A stretch of 64,000 nucleotides of DNA, taken from the NCBI RefSeq assembly GCF_014205015.1, contig NZ_JACHMO010000001.1, positions 6,076,001 through 6,140,000 of the forward strand, written 5' to 3'. Below, piece by piece: positions 29,014 to 42,181 of the stretch. Origin of the DNA: Saccharothrix ecbatanensis. GTDB lineage: Bacteria; Actinomycetota; Actinomycetes; Mycobacteriales; Pseudonocardiaceae. Within the stretch, counting starts at the first letter, position 1, and each line of letters starts with the position of its first letter. The notes under the pieces are model-generated. The model worked only from the letters and a program-made list of their open reading frames with translations. It was not told where the DNA came from and did no database searches. A program made the position numbers and the translations under genes.

Positions 29014-31122
29014 ATGGCTGCCGACTCGATCCTGCTCGCGGGCCGACCGTTCCCCCTCGGGGCGTACCCGGAGGCCGGAGGTGTGCGCTTCGCGGTCTCG
29101 GCACCGCCCGCGGACGCCGTCGAAGTGTGCCTGATCAGCGAAGACGGCACGGAGGAGCGGGTGGAGCTGACCGAGCGCACGTTCGGCGTGTGGCACGGTC
29201 TGATCTCCGGCGTGACGCCCGGCCAGCGGTACGGCTACCGCGTGCACGGCCCGTACGACCCGGGCCGCGGCCTGCGGTGCAACCCCGCCAAGCTGCTCAT
29301 CGACCCGTATGCGACGCGAATCACGGGCACGCTGACCGACCTGGACGCGGCGCTGGGCTACGTGGACGACCCGATGCTCGGCGGCCCGTCCCCGGTCGAC
29401 TCGCTGGGCAGCGTGCCGCTGTCCGTGGTCACGTCGCCCGGAGGGCCGGACACGGGCGTGAAGCCGGACGTCCCGTTCGAGGAAGCGGTGATCTACGAGC
29501 TGCACGTGCGCGGGTTCACCAAGCTGCACCCGGCCGTGCCCGAGCACCAGCGCGGCACGTACCTGGGGATGGCGCACCCGGCCGTGGTGGAGCACCTGGT
29601 GCGGTTGGGCGTGACGTCGGTGGAGCTGCTGCCGGTGCACGCGTTCGTGGACGAGCCGCCGCTGATGCGGGCGGGCAGGCACAACTACTGGGGCTACTCG
29701 CCGCTGAGCTACTTCGCGCCGCACCCCGGCTACGCCAGCGAGCCGGGCCGGGAGGTGGAGGAGTTCCGCACGATGGTGTCCGCGATGCACGCCGTGGGCA
29801 TCGAGGTGATCATCGACGTGGTCTTCAACCACACCTGCGAGGGCGGGCCGGAGGGTCCGACGCTGTGCTACCGGGGCTTCGACGCGCCCGGCTACTACCT
29901 GCACATCGAGGGCGGCGGCACGCTCGACATCACCGGCTGCGGCAACACGACCGAGGCCGGGTCGCCGCAGTTCGTGCGGCTGGTGACGGACTCGCTGCGG
30001 TACTGGGCCACCGAGATGGGCGTGGACGGGTTCCGGTTCGACCTGGCGTCGACGCTGGGCCGGCCCGGTGGCGGCCGGTTCGACCGGGCTTCGGCGATGC
30101 TGACCGCGATCACGAGCGACCCGGTCCTGTCCCGGTGCAAGCTGATCGCGGAGCCGTGGGACGCGACCGGCGACGGGTACCGCGTGGGCGATTTCGGCGT
30201 GCAGTGGGCCGAGTGGAACGGCCGTTACCGCGACACCGTGCGCGACTTCTGGCGTGGGATGACGAACGTGCGCGACCTGGCGTACCGGCTGTCCGGGTCG
30301 TCCGACCTGTACGCCGACGACCTGCGCCGGCCGTGGCAGTCGATCAACTTCATCACCGCGCACGACGGGTTCACGCTGCGGGACCTGGTGTCCTACAACG
30401 AGAAGCACAACCTCGCCAACGGTGAGGACAACCGTGACGGCACGAACGACAACCGGTCGTGGAACTGCGGTGTGGAAGGCGACACGGACGACGCGGCGGT
30501 GCTGGCGCTGCGGGCGCGGCAGGCGCGGAACCTGTTCGCCACGCTGATGCTGTCCACCGGCACGCCGATGCTGGCGGCGGGTGACGAGCAGTGGCGCACG
30601 CAGGACGGCAACAACAACGCGTACTGCCTGGACGACGAGACGTCGTGGATGGACTGGAAGCTCGCCGGCGAGGGTGAGGCGATGCTGGCGTTCGCCCGGC
30701 GGGTGATCAACCTGCGCGGCGCGTCGCCGGCGTTGCGGCAGCCGCAGTTCTTCGACGGCCGGACCACGGCGTCCGGTGCGCCCGACCTGGTGTGGTTCCG
30801 GCCGGACGGCGAGGAGATGGCCGAGACCGACTGGTTCGACGAGGGCCGCAGGTTCCTCGGCATGTGGATCGACGGGTCGAACAGCCTGTCCCGTTCGCGT
30901 GACGGCGAGTTGGTGTCGGACGACTCGTGGCTGCTGCTCATGCACGCCGGGGCGGAGCCGATCGACGTGACGCTGCCGGGGCCCGAGTACGGCGGGCGGT
31001 ACGAGCCGACGCTCGACTCGACGACGGCGGACGGCTCGCCGTCGGTGGCCGGGACGCTGGGCGCCGGTGCGACGGTCGTGCTGCGCGGTCGCTCCCTGTT
31101 GCTGCTCCGGGTGCCGAACTGA
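29014..31122 (+). CDS. glgX: Glycogen debranching enzyme GlgX
   Basis: GlgX hydrolyses alpha-1,6 branch points left after phosphorolysis. The 702-residue protein has an N-terminal CBM48 domain (GAYPEAGGVRFAVSAPPADA, then YGYRVHGPYDPGRGLRCNP) and a GH13 barrel. The nucleophile is in VDGFRFDLASTLGR (about residue 341), the acid in LIAEPWDATGDGY (about 379), and the third carboxylate in INFITAHDGFTLRDLV (about 449). NGEDNRDGTNDNRSWNCG is the debranching-enzyme loop. It is the first gene of the alpha-glucan island, transcribed alone and divergent from the ABC ATPase. GlgP at 33.8 kb is its natural partner. Confidence 0.96.
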   Translation: MAADSILLAGRPFPLGAYPEAGGVRFAVSAPPADAVEVCLISEDGTEERVELTERTFGVWHGLISGVTPGQRYGYRVHGPYDPGRGLRCNPAKLLIDPYATRITGTLTDLDAALGYVDDPMLGGPSPVDSLGSVPLSVVTSPGGPDTGVKPDVPFEEAVIYELHVRGFTKLHPAVPEHQRGTYLGMAHPAVVEHLVRLGVTSVELLPVHAFVDEPPLMRAGRHNYWGYSPLSYFAPHPGYASEPGREVEEFRTMVSAMHAVGIEVIIDVVFNHTCEGGPEGPTLCYRGFDAPGYYLHIEGGGTLDITGCGNTTEAGSPQFVRLVTDSLRYWATEMGVDGFRFDLASTLGRPGGGRFDRASAMLTAITSDPVLSRCKLIAEPWDATGDGYRVGDFGVQWAEWNGRYRDTVRDFWRGMTNVRDLAYRLSGSSDLYADDLRRPWQSINFITAHDGFTLRDLVSYNEKHNLANGEDNRDGTNDNRSWNCGVEGDTDDAAVLALRARQARNLFATLMLSTGTPMLAAGDEQWRTQDGNNNAYCLDDETSWMDWKLAGEGEAMLAFARRVINLRGASPALRQPQFFDGRTTASGAPDLVWFRPDGEEMAETDWFDEGRRFLGMWIDGSNSLSRSRDGELVSDDSWLLLMHAGAEPIDVTLPGPEYGGRYEPTLDSTTADGSPSVAGTLGAGATVVLRGRSLLLLRVPN

Positions 31123-31203
31123 CCGGTCCGGGTTGCCGGAAACGTCGGCCACCGAGGCAATCCTGCCTGGTGGGAGGCTGTGCGCGGGTCGTGGGTTTCG
31201 TGC

Positions 31204-31215
31204 CACCATGCCGGG
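31204..31215 (+). promoter_or_regulatory. -10 CACCAT six bases before the leader-peptide GTG
   Basis: CACCAT at 31204-31209 plus GCCGGG reaches GTG at 31216. The leader would be translated from the very 5' end of the mRNA. Confidence 0.45.
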
Positions 31216-31314
31216 GTGGCCCGCCCGTTGCTGACTTGGCGTGACCGCACGATCGACCTCCTGCTGGTGGCGTCGTGCGGGTGTAGCCGGACGCGACGCG
31301 GCCGGTCGTCCTGA
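31216..31314 (+). CDS. 32-residue cysteine-containing leader peptide for the cysteine dioxygenase operon
   Basis: This short reading frame starts with GTG at 31216 and encodes VARPLLTWRDRTIDLLLVAS, then CGCSRTRRGRSS. The middle (RTIDLLLVASCGC) resembles the actinobacterial putative-leader-peptide type (core like HVDLxRVAS..C) found before sulfur-metabolism genes. Two Cys codons, TGC and TGT, flank one Gly codon at 31276-31284. A 13-bp hairpin begins six bases after the second Cys codon. The TGA lies in its loop. Initiation is probably leaderless. Ribosome pausing on the Cys codons would change folding of the hairpin and so expression of the dioxygenase and rhodanese downstream. The attenuation role is inference; the family resemblance and layout are seen. 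Confidence 0.6.
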   Translation: MARPLLTWRDRTIDLLLVASCGCSRTRRGRSS

Positions 31315-31335
31315 CGCTTGGCGCCGCGTCGCGTC
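31290..31335 (+). promoter_or_regulatory. Attenuator-like hairpin overlapping the leader peptide stop
   Basis: GACGCGACGCGGC at 31290-31302 and its exact complement at 31323-31335 form a 13-bp stem with a 20-base loop that holds the leader's TGA at 31312-31314. TTGAT follows. The dioxygenase ribosome site AGGAG at 31368-31372 lies 33 bases downstream, so control is more likely transcriptional than by direct occlusion. Confidence 0.6.
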
Positions 31336-31380
31336 TTGATCGCTACCCCGCCCGATTCGTAGCCATCAGGAGCGACCCCC

Positions 31381-31959
31381 GTGACCGCGACTCTCGCGCG
31401 CGCCGACCTGCACCCGAAACTGGACGTGCGGTTCCTGCGCGACCTCATCCACCCCGAACGCGACCTGTGGACGCCGCGCGAACTGCGTGAGCTGACGTCC
31501 GCGGTCGCCTCCGAGCTGACCACGCCGTTGCTGGACATCCTCGACTTCGACCCGGATCGGCGCTGGTGGGCACGGCTCGGGCTGACCGGTGGCGTCGAGC
31601 TGTGGCTGCTGAGCTGGCTGCCAGGTCAGGGCACCGAGCCGCACGACCACGGTGGCGCGGCGGGCTCGTTCAGCGTGTTGACCGGTGAGCTGGCGGAGGA
31701 CTACCGGTACCCCGGTGGGCCGATCCGCAGCGCGTCGCGTCCTGTCGGGAGCGTTTTGGGCTTCGGGGCGGGGCGTGCGCACCAGGTGGTGAACCGCGGC
31801 GCCGTCGGTGCGGCGAGCGTGCACGCCTACTCGCCGCCGTTGGTGCCGACGCGGGAGTACGCGAGCCTGGCGGACGTCCCGCACGAGATCCCGCCGTTGC
31901 CCGCCCGGCGGCTGCCGTTGGAGCAGCTGCGCGTCCTGGCCGACCTGGAGGGTCCGTGA
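31381..31959 (+). CDS. Cysteine dioxygenase family protein (cupin)
   Basis: Cysteine dioxygenase oxidises L-cysteine with O2 to cysteine sulfinate using mononuclear iron. The protein has 192 residues. LPGQGTEPHDHGGAAGSFSV gives the first cupin motif with two iron His residues (HDH), and GFGAGRAHQVVNRGA gives the third His. AGGAG lies eight bases before the GTG start. It is preceded by the Cys-codon leader and followed by a rhodanese whose GTG overlaps its TGA. Leader, cysteine oxidation and sulfur transfer together make a small cysteine or sulfane-sulfur handling operon. Thiol dioxygenases for other substrates (3-mercaptopropionate) share the fold, so cysteine is the best but not the only choice. 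Confidence 0.88.
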   Translation: MTATLARADLHPKLDVRFLRDLIHPERDLWTPRELRELTSAVASELTTPLLDILDFDPDRRWWARLGLTGGVELWLLSWLPGQGTEPHDHGGAAGSFSVLTGELAEDYRYPGGPIRSASRPVGSVLGFGAGRAHQVVNRGAVGAASVHAYSPPLVPTREYASLADVPHEIPPLPARRLPLEQLRVLADLEGP

Positions 31960-32342: not shown

Positions 32343-32369
32343 CCGCCGTCCCGTCCCGTCCCGAGCGTT

Positions 32370-32540
32370 GAATTCACCCGTCCTGAACGTAGGACTCACC
32401 CGTCCCCAACGTAGGACTCACCCGTTCTGAACGTAGGACTCACGCGAGGTTGGGGTGAGTCCTACGTTCAGGACCCGTGAGTCCTACGTTCAGGACAACC
32501 GTGTCCTACGTTCGGAACGGATGAATTCAACGTTCAGGAC
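32370..32540. repeat. Palindromic array of a 22-bp intergenic repeat (AACGTAGGACTCAC family)
   Basis: AACGTAGGACTCAC occurs at 32386-32399, 32408-32421 (22-base period) and 32430-32443. Its reverse complement follows at 32455-32468 and 32477-32490, with a shortened copy at 32501-32512. TGAATTCA-type ends flank both sides (about 32369-32376 and 32522-32529). The whole block can fold into one long hairpin of more than 70 bases per arm. A single perfect palindrome of the same motif lies at 57785-57829. No gene is present in this gap of about 230 bases. Confidence 0.9.
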
Positions 32541-32576
32541 CGGAACCGGGGCTGGGGCGGTAGCGTCTCCAGGTTC

Positions 32577-33784: not shown

Positions 33785-36355
33785 TCAGTTCGCCAGCACG
33801 ACCCGGCCCAGCTCGGCCGGTGACGCCAGCAGGTCGTGCCGGGGCAGCACGCGCACCGTGTAGCCCACCGCGCCCGCGTGCGGCAACGGCACCTCGATCT
33901 CGTAGTTCCCGTTCCCCGCGTAACGCATCCCGTGCGTGACCACGTCATACAGCTCGTCCGAGTCGCCCACGCGGCCCAACGCCACCTGCACGTCCACCTC
34001 GGACGGCTCCAACCCGGCCAGCTCCACCCGCGCACGCACGGCCACCGGCGAACCGAGGTTCGGCGTGACCGACCCGTTCAGCGACATCTCCGACTCCAGC
34101 ACCCGCACCCGCGTCCACGACGCCCGCAGCCGCTGCCGGTACGCCGCCAACTCCTTCGCGCCACGGAACCCCTCACCGACCACCGAAGCAGCCGACGACG
34201 CGGCGGGCGCGTACAGGTTCTCCACGTACTCGCGCACCATCCGCGACGCCTGCACGGCCGGGCCGAGCGACGCCAGCGTGTGCCGCACCATGGCCAGCCA
34301 CCGGGTCGGCACGCCGTCGTCGCCCCGGTCGTAGAACAGCGGCGCGACCTGGTTGCCGAGCAGGTCGTACAGCGCGGCGGCCTCCAGGTCGTCACGCCGG
34401 GTCGGGTCGGTGATGCCGTCGGCGGTCGGGATGGCCCAGCCGTTGCTGCCGTCGTACAGCTCGTCCCACCAGCCGTCGCGGATCGACAGGTTCAGCCCGC
34501 CGTTCAGCGCCGACTTCATGCCGGACGTGCCGCACGCCTCCAGCGGGCGCATCGGGTTGTTCAGCCACACGTCGCAGCCCCAGTACAGGTACCGGGCCAT
34601 GGACATGTCGTAGTCGGGCAGGAACACGATCCGGTGCCGCACGCCCGCGTCGTCGGCGTAGCGCACGATCTGCTGGATCAGCGCCTTGCCGCCGTCGTCG
34701 GCCGGGTGCGACTTGCCCGCGACGACCAGCTGCACCGGCCGTTCCGGGTGCAGCAGCATCGCGCGCAGCCGCTCCGGGTCGCGCAACATCAGCGTGAGCC
34801 GCTTGTACGTCGGCACGCGGCGGGCGAAGCCGACGGTCAGCACGTCCGGGTCGAACACCGAGTCGGTCCAGCCCAGCTCCAACGCCGACGCGCCGCGCTG
34901 CAACCACGACGCGCGCGTGCGGCGGCGGACCTCGCCGACCAGCTTGGCGCGCAGCTCGTTGCGCAGCTCCCACAGCCGCTGGTCGGTGACCGGCTCGAAC
35001 CCGTGCAGGCCGACGCCCGAGTCCTCGGAGTCGCCGAGCAGCCTGCTCATCTCGGTGGCGGCCCACGTCGGACCGTGCACGCCGTTGGTGACCGAGCCGA
35101 TCGGCACCTCGGACGCGTCGAAGCCGGGCCACAGGGCGCGGAACATGTCACGGCTCACGCGACCGTGCAGCTTGGACACGCCGTTGGCGCGCTGTGCCAG
35201 CCGCAGGCCCATGTGCGCCATGTTGAACAGGCCGGGGTTCTCCTCGGCGCCGAGGGCGAGGATGCGCTGGGTGTTCACGCCCGGCAGCAGCGTCTCCGGG
35301 CCGAAGTAGTGCTGGACCAGGTCCACCGGGAACCGGTCGATGCCCGCCGGGACGGGCGTGTGCGTGGTGAACACCGTGCCCGCGCGGACCGCCGCCAACG
35401 CCTGGTCGAAGTCCAGGCCCTCGACGGTGACCAGCTCGCGGATGCGTTCGAGGCCGAGGAACCCGGCGTGGCCCTCGTTGGTGTGGAACACCTCCGGCGG
35501 GGTGTGGCCGGTCAGCTCGCAGTACGTGCGCACGGCCCGCACGCCGCCGATGCCGGCCAGGATCTCCTGCCGGATGCGGTGGTCCTGGTCGCCGCCGTAG
35601 AGGCGGTCGGTGACGCCGCGCAGGTCCTCGTCGTTCTCCTCCACGTCGGAGTCGAGGAGCAGCAGCGGGATGCGGCCGACCTGCGCCTTCCAGATCTTGG
35701 CCCGCAGCACCCGGTCGCCCGGCATGGCGACGTGCACCAGGATCGGCGCGCCGGACGGCTCGGTGAGCAGCTCCAGCGGCAGGCCGCGCGGGTCGAGGAC
35801 GGGGTAGTGCTCGATCTGCCAGCCGTCCAGGCTCAGGCCCTGCCGGAAGTAGCCGGACCGGTAGAGCAGACCGACCGCGATCAGCGGAACGCCCAGGTCG
35901 GAGGCCGCTTTCAGGTGGTCGCCGGCCAGCACGCCGAGACCGCCGGAGTAGTTCGGCAGGGCCTCGGTGACGCCGAACTCCATGGAGAAGTAGGCGATCG
36001 CCTTCGGCAGCGGCTGGAGCTCGTAGTTGCCGTGCTCCCGACGCTGCTGGACCTCGTCCTGGCGGCGCTGGAACCAGCGCGGCCCGGTCGTGTAGCGGTG
36101 CAGGTCGTCGGCCAGCGCGCGGGCGTGGGCGAGGAACTGCTCGTCGGCGGACAGCGCGTCGAGGCGTTCGGGCGCGACCACGGAGAGCAGGCGCAGCGGA
36201 TCACCGCTGTCGGCCCACAGCTCGGGGTCGACCGACGCGAACAGGTCCTGGGTCGGCTGGTGCCACGTCCAGCGCAGGTTCGTGGCGAGGGTGCCCAGGG
36301 CCGTCAACGGCTCGGGCAGGCTGGCTCGGACGGTGAACCGGCGAAGTGCTCGCAT
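33785..36355 (-). CDS. glgP: Alpha-glucan (glycogen/maltodextrin) phosphorylase GlgP
   Basis: GlgP cleaves terminal alpha-1,4-glucose with phosphate to glucose-1-phosphate, using PLP. The 856-residue length matches the TIGR02094 (Rv1328-like) branch. MRALRRFTVRASLPEPLTAL is the family start, AYFSMEFGVTEALPNYSGGL the N-terminal catalytic loop, VFHTNEGHAGFLGLERIREL the substrate-binding region, and LEACGTSGMKSALNGGLNLS holds the PLP lysine. The ATG at 36355 is used; a frame extending to 36394 lacks support. TAAGGT lies eight bases upstream on the minus strand. In M. tuberculosis it is adjacent to glgE and glgB, as broadly here. With glgX it forms the degradative arm of the island. Confidence 0.95.
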   Translation of the reverse strand: MRALRRFTVRASLPEPLTALGTLATNLRWTWHQPTQDLFASVDPELWADSGDPLRLLSVVAPERLDALSADEQFLAHARALADDLHRYTTGPRWFQRRQDEVQQRREHGNYELQPLPKAIAYFSMEFGVTEALPNYSGGLGVLAGDHLKAASDLGVPLIAVGLLYRSGYFRQGLSLDGWQIEHYPVLDPRGLPLELLTEPSGAPILVHVAMPGDRVLRAKIWKAQVGRIPLLLLDSDVEENDEDLRGVTDRLYGGDQDHRIRQEILAGIGGVRAVRTYCELTGHTPPEVFHTNEGHAGFLGLERIRELVTVEGLDFDQALAAVRAGTVFTTHTPVPAGIDRFPVDLVQHYFGPETLLPGVNTQRILALGAEENPGLFNMAHMGLRLAQRANGVSKLHGRVSRDMFRALWPGFDASEVPIGSVTNGVHGPTWAATEMSRLLGDSEDSGVGLHGFEPVTDQRLWELRNELRAKLVGEVRRRTRASWLQRGASALELGWTDSVFDPDVLTVGFARRVPTYKRLTLMLRDPERLRAMLLHPERPVQLVVAGKSHPADDGGKALIQQIVRYADDAGVRHRIVFLPDYDMSMARYLYWGCDVWLNNPMRPLEACGTSGMKSALNGGLNLSIRDGWWDELYDGSNGWAIPTADGITDPTRRDDLEAAALYDLLGNQVAPLFYDRGDDGVPTRWLAMVRHTLASLGPAVQASRMVREYVENLYAPAASSAASVVGEGFRGAKELAAYRQRLRASWTRVRVLESEMSLNGSVTPNLGSPVAVRARVELAGLEPSEVDVQVALGRVGDSDELYDVVTHGMRYAGNGNYEIEVPLPHAGAVGYTVRVLPRHDLLASPAELGRVVLAN

Positions 36356-36496
36356 GGCGTCGGACCTTATCCCCCATCCAGCGGTGCGGGACAACCGTCA
36401 CCCGGACCGATGCAGGGACCGATACAGCTTCACCTGCGGTTACAGGCTCCCGCGTGTTCTTTCGTACACACCCCGTCACTGTTGACGCAACCAGCG

Positions 36497-40195: not shown

Positions 40196-42181
<1,986 letters not shown>

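Follow-up and report, generated by a model that had tools for sequence, protein, structure and literature searches.

Organization of the dioxygenase–rhodanese locus

The window, meaning the whole 64 000-nucleotide stretch of DNA analysed here, belongs to a genome that groups with Saccharothrix. At positions 31381–31959 of its forward strand lies the gene for a thiol (cysteine-type) dioxygenase of 192 aa, which matched PF05995 (Cysteine dioxygenase type I) with 54.5 bits, above the gathering score of 23, and whose best matches in other genomes were 92 % identical. It is followed on the same strand, with an overlap of 4 nt, by a gene for a rhodanese-domain protein (PF00581; 31956–32342). Arg65 of the dioxygenase aligns with an Arg of the B. 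subtilis CDO and was invariant in nine aligned sequences, which fits cysteine as the substrate. The operon is located between apparent glycogen debranching and glycogen phosphorylase genes (29014–31122 and 33785–36394; named from their translations), and a membrane-type ORF lies between the same two genes. At positions 32354–32544, 22-nt units are arrayed in two halves of opposite orientation, with 90-nt arms that are 82 % complementary. The genome contains 273 copies (136 forward, 137 reverse) of a 15-mer of this array, GAACGTAGGACTCAC, as against none for a reversed-letter control, and the array is a dispersed REP-like element. Elsewhere in the window (40574–40672), ARAGORN identified an unusually long tRNA-Arg (tcg) of 99 nt.

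Upstream of the dioxygenase gene, and on the same strand, an ORF of 32 codons plus TGA (VARPLLTWRDRTIDLLLVASCGCSRTRRGRSS; 31216–31314) extends from GTG 31216 to the TGA at 31312–31314. It contains two Cys codons, TGC at 31276–31278 and TGT at 31282–31284, and the frame, both codons and the stop were confirmed as described in a previous sequence-only reading of this DNA. The conserved core of the encoded peptide, DLLLVASCGC, occupies 31255–31284 and is numbered here from its Asp (D0) to its second Cys (Cys9). A −10-like element, CACCAT, is present at 31204–31209, 6 nt upstream of the leader GTG. Of 77 loci, 73 showed the corresponding pattern, CANNAT-N(6 or 7)-RTG (GTG or ATG) in frame with the leader; none of 462 control windows did. 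A −10-like element at this distance from an in-frame start is the layout of a leaderless mRNA, and as read from the sequence it implies that the leader transcript has GTG 31216 at its start. Inspection by eye of the region upstream of the −10 element (31169–31176 in the window; also L049 and L059) revealed a GGTGRGAG-like box about 27 nt from the −10 element in many loci and, in Lentzea, an inverted repeat, GACGCTCT...AGAGCGTC, which suggests a possible operator.

Conservation of the leader among dioxygenase loci

Genome contigs were searched by dioxygenase alignment, and the best 80 of 203 relatives were kept for leader counts. By name, these 80 loci derive from Saccharothrix, Umezawaea, Lentzea, Actinosynnema, Kibdelosporangium, Amycolatopsis, Kutzneria, Saccharopolyspora and relatives; they are kin, so that counts over them overstate independence. 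With a strict motif, 62 of these loci proved to have a DRTIDLLLVASCGC-type leader ahead of the dioxygenase, and with a looser one 76 did; four orthologous loci (L079, L082, L087 and L102) gave no match even to the looser motif. Loose text matching indicated a rhodanese-like protein for the ORF that follows the dioxygenase in 73 of the 80. The frame is thus conserved in relatives, a point on which the sequence-only reading had called for a check, and it stands in cis before the dioxygenase–rhodanese pair as that reading had proposed.

The leaders found with the strict motif were aligned with that of the window (63 leaders), and a larger set combined the window with the leaders found by the looser motif (77 leaders). 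Asp0, Ser6 and Cys9 were unchanged in all 63 aligned leaders, with synonymous variation at third bases elsewhere. Conservation of the Cys codons, for which the earlier reading had also proposed a check, was established for one codon of the two: the second was TGT in 77 of 77 leaders, but the first encoded Cys in only 58 of 77, and 15 of the 63 aligned leaders have Ala, Ser or Gly in its place. The pN/pS ratio was 0.39 for codons 0 to 6 and 0.46 for codons −3 to 9, compared with 0.90 for the N-terminal stretch and 1.18 for the tail, where RNA pairing may act as a further constraint. The low ratio of the core relative to the N-terminal stretch and tail indicates selection on the peptide core itself. 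Such conservation at the amino-acid level would also be expected of a functional small protein that acts in trans and is accompanied by an incidental hairpin. This explanation is very improbable, given that the leader precedes the dioxygenase in cis at nearly all of the loci counted above and that the variation of its N-terminus and tail reduces the likelihood of a stable protein.

Leaders of this type are not confined to one dioxygenase. A second dioxygenase of the window genome, CDO2, is encoded about 100 kb away and is 42 % identical over the matched part. Its leader, MSFRAMIDGRGHIDLSLVASALCLSR, also contains TGT (L002; G000 6006792–6007088, minus strand), and CDO2-type leaders were present in 18 of 21 loci inspected (L002 and L198–L217). 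Among homologues of the dioxygenase from other families within the order, a leader was detected in five of 20 chosen matches; one of the 15 homologues without a leader had only 194 nt of upstream sequence. At one further locus, L163, an ergothioneine-dioxygenase-type gene (E 3e-60 to 8qfl) lies behind a canonical cysteine leader, RRHVDLSRVSSSLCCC. Ergothioneine dioxygenase was rejected as a general target of such leaders, since no leader occurred within 700 nt of 14 further orthologues in a search of 246 genomes.

Relationship to known cysteine leaders

Mycobacterial polycysteine leaders are reportedly attenuators that respond to cysteine availability, as described by Canestrari in 2020. Cysteine leader peptides of actinobacteria were already known (PMC1262725, PMC4633059), and two reports describe mycobacterial cysteine sORFs as controlling downstream translation through cysteine-dependent elongation (PMC9031893, PMC13236596). 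The window leader resembles these attenuators in its cysteine codons and in the sulfur genes downstream, and would resemble them also in the leaderless sORF that its sequence layout predicts and in the proposed control of downstream translation. Polycysteine leaders of the type VDLCRVAGCCCCCCSC, detected in genomes of the order and taken as mycobacterial by resemblance, have the same D0...C9 spacing as the window leader and likewise use TGT at C9. The window leader differs from them in its lack of a contiguous Cys run, having instead C-G-C with one Cys invariant across 77 leaders, and in its target, a thiol dioxygenase with a rhodanese. Similarly, the cys leaders of Seliverstov et al. (2005; PMC1262725) are Cys-codon leaders before cys operons with no terminator; as far as the accessible part of that survey goes, those of Mycobacterium, P. 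acnes and B. longum have runs of Cys codons, and neither a dioxygenase nor a TGT rule is mentioned.

Matches to the NCBIfam family NF042934 (cis_reg_atten) came from 74 of 81 genomes of the order and from 110 of 148 sampled from the class. Two other leaders of the window genome passed its cut-off, and leaders of the same family as that of the window precede a sulfite/nitrite-reductase-type gene and a DUF4395 gene with a two-stretch rhodanese protein (CysA2-like) in this genome. The window peptide itself (31216–31311) gave no match to NF042934 at E≤1 and fell below the curated cut-off of 27 bits. A profile–profile comparison of window-type and NF042934 leaders gave a probability of 96.9 % (E 1.5e-10, 19 columns) and a score of 33.6, whereas the best of 60 column shuffles reached 14.6; the comparison is in part circular, since the motif had served to choose both sets. 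Within these motif-selected sets the two types have in common the motif DLxxVxSxxC and the D0-L1-V4-S6-C9 spacing; they differ in that the window leader has WRDRTIDLLL where NF042934 has RRHVDLxR. The family NF042935 was considered and found to be unrelated. The kinship with actinobacterial sulfur-gene leaders, to which the sequence-only reading had pointed, is supported. Judged by its sequence, the window leader is a divergent relative of the known actinobacterial cysteine leaders, namely NF042934 and the mycobacterial polycysteine attenuators.

Codon usage at Cys9

With all leader groups pooled, Cys9 was encoded by TGT in 156 of 158 leaders, comprising all 77 dioxygenase leaders, all 18 CDO2 leaders, all five leaders of dioxygenase homologues from other families and 56 of 58 NF042934 leaders. 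The last group consisted of 30 leaders from the order and 30 from the class (four shared) plus two of the window genome, with many further matches lying outside the sample; all 58 fitted the regular expression, and one locus (L138) did not in a separate reading of 32 loci. The 58 leaders cover 20 family labels, each with at least one TGT, and related loci among them are not independent. The two leaders without TGT were L146 and L033; L033 precedes the sulfite/nitrite-reductase-type gene of the window genome and has TGC at Cys9. The other Cys codons of the 58 NF042934 leaders were TGC in 64 cases and TGT in 14 (Fisher p 3e-22 versus Cys9), and the background share of TGT was 13–21 % (CDS-like frames of the window, 31 of 151; the 80 loci, 194 of 1529; surroundings of the NF042934 loci, 46 of 369).

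RNA pairing was considered as the sole cause of this preference and rejected. An A partner for the third base of TGT was predicted (>0.5) in 43 of 77 dioxygenase leaders and in 23 of 56 TGT-bearing NF042934 leaders, and the third base was unpaired (<0.3) in 18 of 77 and 14 of 56, respectively. Since the third base is unpaired in part of the leaders, pairing alone is insufficient, and on these predictions it may explain part of the preference at most. Kinetic causes, such as wobble reading or a sulfur-modified tRNA, are put forward as ideas only. Among the papers listed in literature searches, none dealt, by its title or abstract, with a dioxygenase target, a single invariant Cys codon or a TGT rule.

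Predicted hairpin and pairing of the Shine–Dalgarno sequence

A perfect 13-bp inverted repeat is formed by 31290–31302 and 31323–31335, with the leader stop codon inside its 20-nt loop, precisely as the sequence-only reading had claimed. Of 3000 dinucleotide shuffles of 31204–31380, one gave a perfect stem of this length or longer. The fold of 31216–31383 had an energy of −85.4 kcal/mol (z −3.04), and none of 200 shuffles was as good. In the minimum free energy (MFE) fold of the window the 13-bp stem is the top of a long hairpin that takes in the Leu codons (from 31258), both Cys codons and then the Shine–Dalgarno (SD) sequence of the dioxygenase. Below the upper stem, a central arm, GGGTGTAGC (31279–31287), pairs with GCTACCCC (31342–31349). 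At the base, an anti-SD arm within the leader codons, CTCCTGCTGG (31258–31267), pairs with CCATCAGGAG (31363–31372), a 3′ arm supported by inverted-repeat pairing and by the MFE fold, which contains the SD sequence AGGAG (31368–31372). All of these arms are on the forward strand.

The upper stem was formed in 60 of 63 MFE folds. When own and foreign leader arms were compared for their fit to the own 3′ region across 77 loci, the own arm was better in 71 for the upper stem, 53 for the central arm and 54 for the anti-SD arm. With the SD chosen automatically as the purine run closest to the expected place, it paired mainly (at least three letters) with leader codons 0–3 in 13 of 16 Saccharothrix/Umezawaea folds, 14 of 15 Amycolatopsis folds and 12 of 22 folds of the Lentzea group, out of the 63. 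The anti-SD arm usually comprises codons 1–2 in Saccharothrix and lies one codon later in Amycolatopsis. A leader-internal hairpin, P1 (31245–31252/31273–31280), was considered as an antisequestor. By eye it seemed compensated in L022 and L030, but it was rejected as a core feature: only 36 of 63 loci retain all eight of its pairs, and in most Amycolatopsis loci it is disrupted with no compensating change.

Scanning 31000–31500 with a simple consensus gave no terminator-like site, and no Rfam family reached its gathering score within the 64-kb window. Of the layout proposed in the sequence-only reading, the conserved leader in cis is supported; no terminator was found in this interval, and in the window the predicted hairpin sequesters the SD. 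This combination fits translation attenuation better than textbook transcription attenuation, and the absence of a U-run intrinsic terminator from this interval sets the locus apart from trp-type transcription attenuators. The uORFC-8-2 cysS motif of Rhodobacterales, likewise an attenuator with a Cys-codon uORF, has an intrinsic terminator and tandem, mostly UGC, Cys codons (PMC8632094), in contrast to UGU and SD sequestration here. Pairing of leader codons with the SD of the downstream gene has a parallel in the LEU element of leuA (PMC1262725); that element has leucine codons and a pseudoknot instead, and the authors doubt attenuation there.

The lack of a U-run terminator within 31000–31500 also accords with Rho-dependent (or other) transcription attenuation, in which the long stem and leader translation would govern access of Rho rather than access to the SD; the 2005 survey proposed Rho for mycobacterial cys leaders for this same reason (PMC1262725). 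Against this mechanism, which we regard as unlikely, the leader arm of the window reaches exactly to the SD, and such an arm pairs with the SD in most Saccharothrix/Umezawaea and Amycolatopsis folds (see above); the mycobacterial relatives are described as translation attenuators in a further report (PMC13236596).

Modelled accessibility of the SD sequence

Accessibility of the SD was modelled by equilibrium folding of this very GC-rich RNA with a ribosome parked at Cys9 or at the stop codon. In free RNA it was low (median 0.054, n=77). A ribosome at Cys9 made the SD more open than in free RNA in 36 of 77 loci (p 0.57), giving no overall gain; by group, a gain was obtained in 13 of 16 Saccharothrix/Umezawaea loci (p 0.0055), in 21 of 39 others and in two of 22 Lentzea loci, where the SD of the free RNA was already more open (median 0.335). 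Measured against free RNA, the outcome thus favours the mechanism proposed below in Saccharothrix/Umezawaea and speaks against it in Lentzea. For the window, accessibility was 0.023 in free RNA, 0.167 with a 17/13-nt footprint and 0.031 with a 20/15-nt footprint, so that the gain was clear only with the smaller footprint. In 40 of 63 loci the SD was more hidden in the native leader than in synonymous shuffles, a weak effect (p 0.047). The stall at Cys9 exceeded the ribosome at the stop in 41 of 77 loci (p 0.23), with no significant difference in any group (Saccharothrix/Umezawaea, 9 of 16, p 0.61). That the modelling cannot tell stall from stop is a further point in favour of the Rho-dependent alternative.

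Proposed mechanism and the sign of control

It is rather likely that the leader and hairpin together constitute a cis-acting, cysteine-responsive translation attenuator that is ON when Cys-tRNA is scarce. The ribosome would translate the leader of a leaderless mRNA beginning at GTG 31216 and, under scarcity of Cys-tRNA, would stall at TGT 31282–31284, perhaps with help from the conserved nascent chain, DLxxVxSxxC. There it would keep the 5′ arm of the hairpin (31256–31302) off the dioxygenase SD and so permit translation of the dioxygenase and rhodanese. With ample Cys-tRNA, the ribosome would reach the stop codon in the loop and be released, and the hairpin would shut over the SD. Ribosomes thus probably sense cysteine shortage by way of a very small gene placed upstream of an operon for sulfur oxidation.

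The invariance of Arg65 fits cysteine as the substrate, and it is therefore odd for a cysteine-consuming enzyme to be ON during cysteine shortage. This problem of sign, raised in the sequence-only reading, stands, and the modelling does not settle it. It would be solved by an arrest peptide like TnaC that stalls ribosomes at high cysteine, so that the catabolic dioxygenase is induced by its substrate; such a peptide is compatible with the observation that D0, V4, S6 and C9 are conserved as amino acids while their third bases vary freely. However, the same motif occurs before sulfite-reductase-type and CysA2-like genes in this genome and, by eye from translations, before such genes in other genomes, and induction of those genes by high cysteine makes little sense. 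The mycobacterial relatives are also reported as cysteine-availability attenuators (PMC13236596, PMC9031893), and we consider TnaC-like arrest quite unlikely. By analogy with the mycobacterial attenuators and with the sister leaders before sulfite/nitrite-reductase-type and CysA2-like genes, we favour control that is ON at low cysteine. If the operon is ON at low cysteine, the dioxygenase would be a sulfur scavenger and not an enzyme of cysteine disposal, which would dissolve the catabolic paradox.

A broader proposal is held tentatively, at somewhat less than even confidence. The actinobacterial cysteine leaders may all be one ancient sensor, in which a single UGU wobble codon nine residues after a conserved Asp, with the nascent DLxxVxSxxC priming the stall, replaces a run of Cys codons, and thiol dioxygenases may belong to its regulon to release sulfur under cysteine shortage.

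These results extend a little-studied family of cysteine leaders to two kinds of thiol dioxygenase. The codon rule (TGT in 156 of 158 leaders) and the peptide rule were unforeseen by a plain picture in which Cys codons are counted. If the sign is as predicted, the name 'cysteine dioxygenase' would be a misleading label here, and the role of the enzyme would be sulfur supply.
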